DNA of 35,524 nucleotides from an uncultured Actinomycetes bacterium. GTDB lineage: Bacteria; Actinomycetota; Coriobacteriia; Coriobacteriales; Atopobiaceae. Below are positions 19,327 to 21,752 of the stretch, one piece after another. Numbering within the stretch: position 1 is the first letter of the stretch; each line of letters opens with the position of its first letter. The stretch is taken from contig OMTG01000049.1 in NCBI GenBank assembly GCA_900313905.1, forward strand, positions 1 through 35,524, given 5' to 3'. The position numbers and the translations under genes are program-made. The notes under the pieces are model-generated. The model ran no database searches. It was not told where the DNA came from and worked only from the letters and a program-made list of their open reading frames with translations.

Positions 19327-19368
19327 GTGGAGGTGCCGCAGCTTGAATGGATGCTGCGGCACCTCCAT
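19327..19368 (+). terminator. strong hairpin after the tsaB-rimI-tsaD gene
   Basis: A 14-bp perfect stem (19329-19342 with 19353-19366) and a ten-base loop follow the stop by 23 bases. There is no T run, so it may act with Rho or as an RNA-end stabiliser. It separates the long operon from the TIR cassette. Confidence 0.65.
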
Positions 19369-19436: not shown

Positions 19437-19442
19437 TATAAT
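19437..19442 (+). promoter_or_regulatory. candidate -10 box (TATAAT) of the TIR cassette
   Basis: A perfect TATAAT lies 45 bases before the TIR gene start. No good -35 box is found at the right spacing (GGCCTG, 19414-19419), so the promoter may need an activator or may be weak. Confidence 0.45.
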
Positions 19443-19486
19443 GAATCCATTGCGCCGCGGACCTTGCCTGAAGGGAGGCGTGAGTG

Positions 19487-21034
19487 ATGGCCTATTTCGA
19501 GAATTTCATCAGCTACCGACATGCCACCATGATGGAACAGGCTAAAAAGCTGCATGACCGTCTGGCACTCTTGGGACATTCGGTGTTCTGGGATTTGGAG
19601 TCCCTGCACGCTGGGACATTCGATGATGCAATCGCAGCTGCCATAGACAGCTGCGAGAACTTCATTGCTCTCACGAACTATGCATCGCTTTCGGCCTGCT
19701 GCAGCGAGGGCGATTGGGTGCGGCAGGAGATATCCCGGGCACTCATGGCACGGAAGAACATCATCCTGTTGTTCGTGGGAGAGAGGATACGCTTTCCTGA
19801 ATCTCTGCCCGAAGAGCTGCTACCCCTCAAACGTTATAACGGCATGGAATTTTTCGATCCGGACAGCGACCGCGATATGGATGAGCTCGTATCCAGGTTC
19901 CTGTCTTCAAGCCACGTGCTCAGCAGGGCGGGGGATTTCGATGTGCATGAGGGGGTCCTGTCCTCCTATCGGGGACAGGCACCCATAGTCGAGATACCAG
20001 AGGGTGTGCGCTGCATCGGAAAAGGTGCCTTCATTGACAGGACGGATATCCAGGAAATCCATTTTCCTGAAGGCATCATCTCAATAGAAGATTCAGCATT
20101 CGAACGCTGCCGCGCCATTCAGACAATTGCTTTGCCGGCTTCTCTTGAGCGCATTGGGGATGCCGCCTTCCGTAGATGCACCGCCCTTCGATTCGTTTTG
20201 TTTGGCCAAGGGCTCAGATCGATTGGCGACCGGGCATTCGAGTTCTGCTCCGCTTTGGGGGCAGTCGAGCTCAAGGATAGACTCGATGAGTTCGCCCCCA
20301 CCTCTTTCAACAACTGCCCCAGCCTCAGGTCCATTGAGGTCAGCAGCGGAAACCGGTGGTTTTCATCTGCTGACGGGATTCTATACAGTCATGATAAGAC
20401 CGAGGTGGTTCGCTGCCCGGAGGGGAAGACGTCGGTCCAGCTTCCGGAGACCGTGAGTGTATTCGCAGACTATTCTTTCTATAAAAGCTCCATCAAGGAG
20501 ATTGATATACCGGGCGAGATCTCATCCATTGGGGCATCGGCATTCCGGCAGAGCAGGCTTCAGGCTGTGCGATACCATGGCGGCAATCCAAAGATTGGCT
20601 CTTTTGCTTTTGCAGATTGTTCGGCCCTGGAGCATAACCCCTTTGAAGACATGGGCCAGAAGATGGAGCATCACCTTGCCGCGCGCGATATAAAATCGGC
20701 GCTGGTCACCTTTGAATATGTAATGGTCACCACGACTTTTGAATCATCCGAGGATGCAGACAGCATGGTATCCCTGCTGCTCGAGAAGAAGCTCATTGTC
20801 GCAGGGCAGATCAAGCCGATACGCTCGGTATACATGTGGAACGACGAGGTCTGCAACGAGCCTGAGGTTGAGCTCTTGTGCATCACGGAAGGATGTCTCT
20901 ATGGGGAGGTCGAGAACTTCATCGTGAAGAACCATCCCTATGAGGTGCCGCAGGTAATCTGTGTGCCCATCATCAATACCACAAGCGACTATGGTAACTG
21001 GATTACGGACTATGTGATGAAGAGGGATGACTGA
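19487..21034 (+). CDS. TIR domain - BspA-type LRR - CutA1-like domain fusion protein
   Basis: A 515-residue protein with no signal peptide or membrane helix. Residues 1-~145 are a TIR domain: NFISYRHATMMEQ, then GHSVFWDLESLHAGTFDDAI, ENFIALTNYAS, and GDWVRQEISRAL, where W77 and E81 stand at the position of the Trp-x3-Glu motif holding the catalytic glutamate of TIR NADases. Residues ~165-385 are eight or nine BspA/LRR_5 repeats of ~23 residues with the pattern IPEGVxxIGxxAFxxC, and one spacer of the type NRWFSSADGILYSHDKT. Residues 411-512 match CutA1 (VMVTTTFESSEDADSMVSLL, then KNHPYEVPQVICVPI). I recognise each domain but no described protein with this order. CutA forms trimers, so the tail could cluster the TIR heads. 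ATG 19487 follows AGGGAGG. GC is lower than in neighbours, mainly in the LRR part. Confidence 0.85.
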   Translation: MAYFENFISYRHATMMEQAKKLHDRLALLGHSVFWDLESLHAGTFDDAIAAAIDSCENFIALTNYASLSACCSEGDWVRQEISRALMARKNIILLFVGERIRFPESLPEELLPLKRYNGMEFFDPDSDRDMDELVSRFLSSSHVLSRAGDFDVHEGVLSSYRGQAPIVEIPEGVRCIGKGAFIDRTDIQEIHFPEGIISIEDSAFERCRAIQTIALPASLERIGDAAFRRCTALRFVLFGQGLRSIGDRAFEFCSALGAVELKDRLDEFAPTSFNNCPSLRSIEVSSGNRWFSSADGILYSHDKTEVVRCPEGKTSVQLPETVSVFADYSFYKSSIKEIDIPGEISSIGASAFRQSRLQAVRYHGGNPKIGSFAFADCSALEHNPFEDMGQKMEHHLAARDIKSALVTFEYVMVTTTFESSEDADSMVSLLLEKKLIVAGQIKPIRSVYMWNDEVCNEPEVELLCITEGCLYGEVENFIVKNHPYEVPQVICVPIINTTSDYGNWITDYVMKRDD

Positions 21035-21035
21035 C

Positions 21036-21347
21036 ATGGGATACTGCATCATCATGACAACATTCGCATCCGCCGAACAGGCGGAGCCCATCGTGAGCGC
21101 TCTGCTGGAGCGCAGGCTTGCGGCATGCATCCAGCGGATAGCGATTTCGAGCAGCTATGTATGGGAGGGAAAAGTGCAGAACGACCCTGAGCTGCTTATT
21201 TTGATCAAGACAAGAGACGAGCTGTTCAGGGAGGTAAAGGAGACCATCGAGAAGCTGCATCCCTATGACACACCTGAGGTCGTGAAGGTTCCCATAGATG
21301 CAGGGAGTGCAAGCTATCTTGCCTGGATTGATGAGGTGACTGGATGA
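21036..21347 (+). CDS. cutA: CutA1 family protein (PII-like fold)
   Basis: A 103-residue stand-alone CutA. It shows CIIMTTFASAEQAEPIVSAL, LLERRLAACIQR, SSYVWEGKVQNDPELLILIK and LHPYDTPEVVKVPI, the complete family pattern. CutA proteins are very stable homotrimers of PII-like fold; they have been linked to divalent cations but their real ligand is uncertain. ATG 21036 sits one base after the stop of the TIR fusion, with GAGGG nine bases upstream; ATG 21027 in the same frame would overlap by eight bases. Because the preceding protein ends in the same fold, mixed trimers are conceivable. Sampled GC is as high as in the housekeeping genes. Confidence 0.92.
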   Translation: MGYCIIMTTFASAEQAEPIVSALLERRLAACIQRIAISSSYVWEGKVQNDPELLILIKTRDELFREVKETIEKLHPYDTPEVVKVPIDAGSASYLAWIDEVTG

Positions 21348-21676
21348 GCGGAAGGACTTTCAAGGTCGTGACCTTCGTTCCACCTGAGCATCTGGATGCG
21401 CTTGCGGATGCGCTTCGCAAGATCAGGATCAACCGGTTGGGGAACTATCAGAATTGCATGTCATGGACGCAGGTGACCTCGAGCTGGGACTCGCTCGGGG
21501 AGGCTCATCCGTTCCTCGGCACGCCAGGAAAGCGGAGCATCGAGAGCGAATGCCGACTTGAGTTCCAATGCGATGAAAGCAGGCTTGGCGAGGCGGTTGC
21601 GACGATACGCGAGCGGCATCCCTACGAGGAGCCGGAGATAGACATCTATCCGCTCCTAGACCCAGATGCGCTCTAG
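21344..21676 (+). CDS. YqfO / NIF3 C-terminal-type PII-like domain protein
   Basis: A 110-residue protein that corresponds to the PII/CutA-like domain inserted in NIF3/YqfO proteins, here free-standing. Diagnostic parts are VTFVPPEHLDALADALRKI, RLGNYQNCMSWT, AHPFLGTPGKRS and RERHPYEEPEIDIYPL. It overlaps the stop of cutA by four bases (ATGA), which implies translational coupling. Ligand and partner are unknown. It makes a third member of the same fold superfamily in a row after the CutA tail of the TIR fusion and CutA itself, pointing to one shared sensing or assembly task. Confidence 0.85.
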   Translation: MSGRTFKVVTFVPPEHLDALADALRKIRINRLGNYQNCMSWTQVTSSWDSLGEAHPFLGTPGKRSIESECRLEFQCDESRLGEAVATIRERHPYEEPEIDIYPLLDPDAL

Positions 21677-21704
21677 GCTGACTGCGCTGCTGGATAGTTC
21701 GCAG

Positions 21705-21752
21705 AAGGGCGCCGCAGCATGGACAGATACCGCGGCACCCTCTCTTTCTGCT
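21705..21752 (+). terminator. terminator closing the TIR-CutA cassette
   Basis: GGGCGCCGC (21707-21715) pairs with GCGGCACCC (21732-21740) with one mismatch, extended by A-T, and is followed by a T/C-rich stretch (TCTCTTTCT). It lies 30 bases after the last cassette gene. Confidence 0.7.

Follow-up and report, generated by a model that had tools for sequence, protein, structure and literature searches.

A stretch of DNA of 35,524 nucleotides from an uncultured, gut-type Atopobiaceae bacterium (hereafter the window) carries a mobile cassette in which a TIR domain, leucine-rich repeats (LRR) and a CutA domain are fused into one protein, followed directly by a gene for a free-standing CutA. It probably represents an anti-phage alarm of a novel type. 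The fusion protein (515 aa) is encoded at positions 19487-21034 of the forward strand, with GTG 19484 as a possible other start. On the same strand, the free CutA gene occupies 21036-21347 and a gene for a third, YqfO/NIF3-insert-like protein of PII fold occupies 21344-21676. The 1-base gap between the fusion and free CutA genes and the ATGA overlap between the free CutA and third genes, both described in a previous sequence-only reading of the window, are present as stated; with its alternative start at 21027, the free CutA gene would overlap the stop of the fusion gene. Domain order and tight gene coupling were likewise upheld. That reading took all three genes for one system, which is supported for the fusion and the free CutA, conserved together in another genus (genome G102, see below), but the YqfO-like gene is missing at this single homologous locus. 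Because of this absence, the conserved core is two genes.

All three domains claimed for the fusion protein exceed their Pfam cut-offs. TIR_2 matches aa 7-134 (positions 19505-19888, forward strand) with 5.2e-11 and 43.5 bits against a cut-off of 28, and aa 7-139 align with human SARM1 TIR structures at 4e-16. In this alignment the DWVRQE motif, which includes the candidate catalytic residue E81 together with W77, lies opposite DWVHKE of SARM1, whose corresponding glutamate is the catalytic one. Both E81 and W77 are conserved in the G102 homologue. The protein thus combines a match to the TIR fold family with a catalytic-type glutamate, as expected of a SARM1-like TIR. In bacteria, TIR domains that carry such a motif consume NAD and are active when clustered, and we infer that the N-terminal domain is an NAD-consuming effector of the SARM1 class. 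The BspA-type leucine-rich repeats span about aa 168-378 (19988-20620, forward strand). LRR_5 (PF13306) matches in two stretches, the best at aa 168-280 with 2.4e-39, and the repeats and their spacing are conserved in the G102 homologue. In an AlphaFold model built from two sequences, LRR strands are regular; the model is weak in the TIR part, where pLDDT is below 50, and its quality is insufficient for comparing folds.

The fused CutA1 domain (PF03091) comprises aa 413-508 (20723-21010, forward strand), scoring 1.3e-24 and 86.3 bits against a Pfam cut-off of 22.4, and it matches many CutA structures (best 2e-13). The free CutA scores 2.4e-34 and 117.5 bits against the same cut-off. Neither reaches the NCBIfam CutA equivalog cut-off of 120 bits (72.5 for the fused domain, 111 for the free protein). 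The two known fused domains were compared with eight free CutAs. Residues A437, A438, C439, L462 and K466, each kept by seven or all eight of the free CutAs, are replaced by I, V, A/S, E and I/F, respectively, in both fused domains. Among them are the A-A-C, otherwise almost invariant, and the lysine of "KT", which are present in all eight free CutAs; the lost residues may line a ligand site. On the other hand, H483, Y485, W451, Q441 and E460 are retained in both fused domains, and all canonical residues are kept in the free partner CutAs. Such a pattern is what one would expect of a subunit that regulates or takes part in mixed trimers. Since the fused CutA is degenerate where free CutAs are not, such a mixed or regulatory role appears more likely than that of a plain second CutA. 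The fused domains share 49% identity with each other and 27-41% with free copies. Co-inheritance of the fusion and free CutA as a strict pair is not proven by these comparisons, because the similarity between the window and G102 free CutAs (45%) does not exceed that which they show to an unrelated member of the order (48-52%).

Against the PII-like insert of 2nyd (SA1388) and 2gx8 (Bacillus cereus homologue), both NIF3 proteins, the third protein (110 aa) scores 7e-10 and 4e-9, so that its designation as YqfO/NIF3-type proved correct. It aligns along its length with the insert only (chain residues 136-232 of 2nyd) and contains none of the NIF3 metal-site domains that surround the insert; PII-like inserts of NIF3/DUF34 proteins (SA1388, YqfO) and a free-standing YqfO family have been described (PMC8469502). 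A borderline CutA1 match was also obtained with Pfam. No YqfO-like gene was found elsewhere in the family (140 genomes), nor does one follow the free CutA of G102. The third gene is therefore optional and accessory, and was dropped as a member of the core.

Among the 140 family genomes, one full TIR-LRR-CutA homologue was detected, along with many LRR-only matches. It is encoded in G102, an uncultured Atopobiaceae metagenome-assembled genome of another genus (contig CALULC010000108.1), and shares 39% identity across aa 1-511. Its free CutA begins within the stop codon of the fusion gene with an ATGA overlap. A free CutA stands directly after the fusion in both genera, adjacent or overlapping. 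Fused CutA occurs in two of 397 genomes of the order, these being the window genome and G102, while any CutA at all was found by this search in three of the remaining 395. The free CutA thus travels with the fusion, since it is otherwise nearly absent from the order. Elsewhere in the order, free CutAs are not generally located beside TIR genes; one in another family (L081, 6517-8359) lies straight after a pair that resembles hipB-hipA (names assigned by eye), and another HipA-like gene is close by. Across the phylum (396 genomes), nearly all other CutAs are small separate proteins, and the one long CutA frame inspected (458 aa, L087) has no extra domain recognisable by eye.

Further searches, in which whole-genome tools covered Actinomycetota, left the number of known cassette members at two. 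Full-model search of a sample of the phylum matched the window alone, scans of viral contigs with three alignments returned no homologue, and tblastn of plasmids and phages gave LRR or ordinary CutA matches only. A scan of genome contigs recovered the known G102 homologue and two loci with the CutA part alone, using patterns derived from two sequences, with which divergent fusions may be missed.

The cassette is mobile. In both congeners the gene tsaD and an amino-acid-transporter gene are only about 180 bp apart and the cassette is missing, which means an insertion of about 2.4 kb between them in the window. Third-position GC content of the three cassette genes (0.645, 0.645 and 0.712) is lower than in nine other genes of the window (0.79-0.87). 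The islet is delimited on the left by a hairpin, GGTGCCGCAGC-N10-GCTGCGGCACC, downstream of tsaD (19332-19363, forward strand), and on the right by its direct copy with three mismatches in the stem pattern (21708-21739, forward strand). These two are the only matches at three or fewer mismatches in the 2.78-Mb genome; a reversed control pattern had one match, meaning that about one chance match is to be expected, though chance would not place it at the opposite end of the islet. The G102 copy is similarly framed by 146-bp direct repeats, 95% identical (L044, 1249-1394 and 3997-4142), with no further copy in that genome (76% complete). Both cassette copies are thus enclosed by direct repeats with hairpins found nowhere else in their genomes, which suggests that a site resembling a terminator was duplicated upon insertion; there is no recombinase. 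Next to the G102 cassette (L044, 1395-1600) we observed a remnant of the neighbouring hotspot genes, consisting of the C-terminus of an unknown protein of 281 aa together with the start of a PIN-like protein.

A TATAAT box and a terminator of its own had been assigned to the cassette as well. The box, a candidate -10 element, does occur at 19437-19442 (forward strand) and the 3' hairpin is real, but the scan detected neither a matching -35 element completing a sigma-70 pair nor a T-run terminator at the 3' end. The hairpin at 21708-21739 belongs to the two that delimit the islet and is not clearly a terminator.

We examined whether defence genes accompany the cassette, as had been suggested for its homologues. 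This holds for the G102 copy (L044, 1152-4342), which lies between a xanthine-dehydrogenase-type subunit gene and an AGCS-type transporter gene (both named by eye). These flanks are conserved in most of the 31 genomes of that genus, and the gap between them ranges from about 0.2 to 5.9 kb. AbiD, AbiLi/AbiLii or SoFic were present in 11 of 20 sibling loci read: AbiD in three (two of these partial or split), AbiLi-AbiLii with a DUF2971 gene in another three, and SoFic in five, accompanied in two cases by a PDC-S27 ATPase. Other cargo of this hypervariable hotspot (L060-L079) comprises ATPase_2-DUF234, a PIN-like gene and several unknown genes; in G098 the site is empty. The window copy, by contrast, is surrounded by housekeeping genes only (tsaE, tsaBD, the transporter, NAD synthase and a GroEL-type chaperonin) and not by a defence island; ten housekeeping genes of the window yielded one PADLOC match, to a GlgB-like model. 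A defence role of the cassette has good support from location and is likely.

We give even credence to the reading that the cassette is a mobile anti-phage system of the abortive-infection type, composed of a TIR NADase, an LRR sensor and a regulating trimer of fused and free CutA. CutA and PII-like proteins form trimers, and PII-family ligand sites lie between subunits (PMC7877911, PMC8469502). The C-terminal CutA could accordingly gather copies of the fusion protein through a PII-like trimer, which would set the clustering of its SARM1-class, NAD-consuming TIR heads. The LRR would recognise an infection cue or hold the protein shut by an inhibitory contact. The free CutA would be a dedicated partner, most likely in mixed trimers with the fused CutA, diluting or completing the trimer and supplying a small-ligand site that keeps the TIR heads apart. 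A change in metabolite, or a phage protein, would then release the heads and let them cluster, and the YqfO-like protein, where present, might serve as an optional extra regulator of PII fold. NADase activity, trimerisation, ligand, trigger and partner role are all inferred here. Control by mixed CutA trimers is plausible, if tentative, and sensing of a phage-altered nucleotide-type ligand is speculative. The complete proposal, a TIR NADase governed by a hetero-PII trimer of fused and free CutA that reads such a metabolite, as prokaryotic counterpart of the fungal het-B system (see below), is possible but rather doubtful.

The fusion protein might instead act alone, its CutA tail serving for oligomerisation only, while the free CutA and the YqfO-like protein are passengers with metabolic roles of their own. 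This is in line with the lack of conservation of the third gene and with the finding that the closest relative of each free CutA is not the one at the other locus. Yet a free CutA comes right after the fusion in both genera of an order nearly devoid of CutA, and the overlapping starts imply coupled translation, so we regard this explanation as unlikely. A toxin-antitoxin addiction module, in which the TIR would be active at all times and the free CutA, acting on it directly as antitoxin, would serve stability of the islet rather than phage defence, is about as unlikely. It would suit a small mobile two-gene unit between unique repeats, the toxin-like Fic genes among the cargo of the G102 hotspot and the CutA gene found behind a HipA-like gene in genome G183, but leaves the LRR without a role in spite of its conserved sequence and spacing. 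This explanation overlaps with the anti-phage reading, because many toxin-antitoxin modules act in defence.

Two further explanations carry less weight still. CutA and PII-like proteins are thought to be sensors or carriers of small molecules (PMC8469502, PMC7877911), and the cassette could be a switch for metal, redox or nucleotide stress with no part in defence, its CutA sensing a ligand and its TIR making a physiological signal. Patchy distribution, foreign composition and the defence-gene hotspot make this quite improbable. It is very improbable that the TIR protein is a scaffold or an exported effector aimed at the host or at neighbours. Many long proteins of this family do carry BspA-type LRRs, but the fusion protein opens directly with a TIR strand at its very N-terminus, neither it nor its small partner proteins have a hydrophobic leader, and the catalytic-type glutamate is conserved.

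To return to the anti-phage reading, its architecture appears undescribed, as had been supposed: no system was matched in PADLOC, NCBIfam or the papers searched on CutA with TIR or antiphage activity. PADLOC and NCBIfam matches are confined to single domains and name no system, and the only relevant paper concerns het-B of Podospora anserina (PMC10890737). There, the protein Bh, composed of a HET domain (related to TIR) and a lectin, is triggered by the adjacently encoded PII-like protein Bp, and 89 pairs of neighbouring HET and PII-like genes were reported in fungi (PMC10890737). In both systems a death domain of TIR relationship and a recognition domain would be joined by a small PII-like partner, trimeric and able to set off cell death, and a TIR-superfamily effector next to a PII-like gene is present in the cassette. 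However, het-B is fungal, has HET in place of TIR and lectin in place of LRR, and its PII-like fold is unfused; Bp is likened here by description. The effector has no Pfam match to HET (PF06985) up to E = 1, its domain being TIR_2. Het-B is the nearest analogue, if a distant one, and works similarly part for part. Since the effector of the cassette is a TIR and not a HET protein, however, the cassette cannot be counted as a member.

Thoeris and other bacterial TIR defence systems (ThsB, SAVED-TIR, ThcB4, retron-TIR) likewise have a TIR effector, N-terminal or separate, and match weakly, in the TIR part only and below NCBIfam cut-offs. They differ in that the cassette lacks ThsA, SAVED, STING and reverse transcriptase and has LRR and CutA as sensor. 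With respect to Thoeris in particular, there is no ThsA-like gene in the islet and the TIR part matches ThsB at only 0.0045 in PADLOC. The human NAD+ hydrolase SARM1 shares TIR sequence and active-site motif with the fusion protein; in SARM1, too, a multimeric scaffold belonging to the protein itself clusters the TIR, under the control of a metabolite (PMC8494770), but it has an ARM/SAM octamer where the cassette has LRR and CutA. CutA domains of the cassette resemble CutA1 (PF03091) in fold and family score, from which the fused copy departs by loss of conserved residues and by its score under the equivalog cut-off.

CutA is among the most widespread proteins, and its function is not agreed upon. 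If our reading is true, this is the first immune role for CutA, and its fusion to TIR beside a paired free CutA offers a testable handle on what CutA senses. For PII-like proteins, one tie to regulated cell death has been reported, that of fungal het-B; the cassette would add PII-like trimers to the switches for TIR enzymes. Other TIR proteins were observed in these bacteria. The window genome itself encodes a second one (L003, 1483-2868, contig C90), fused to a domain that appears by eye to be methyltransferase-like, and other genera of the family encode a set of SARM1-like TIR proteins (L005-L009, L015; about 370-386 aa) that also possess a membrane segment and a further domain at the C-terminus.
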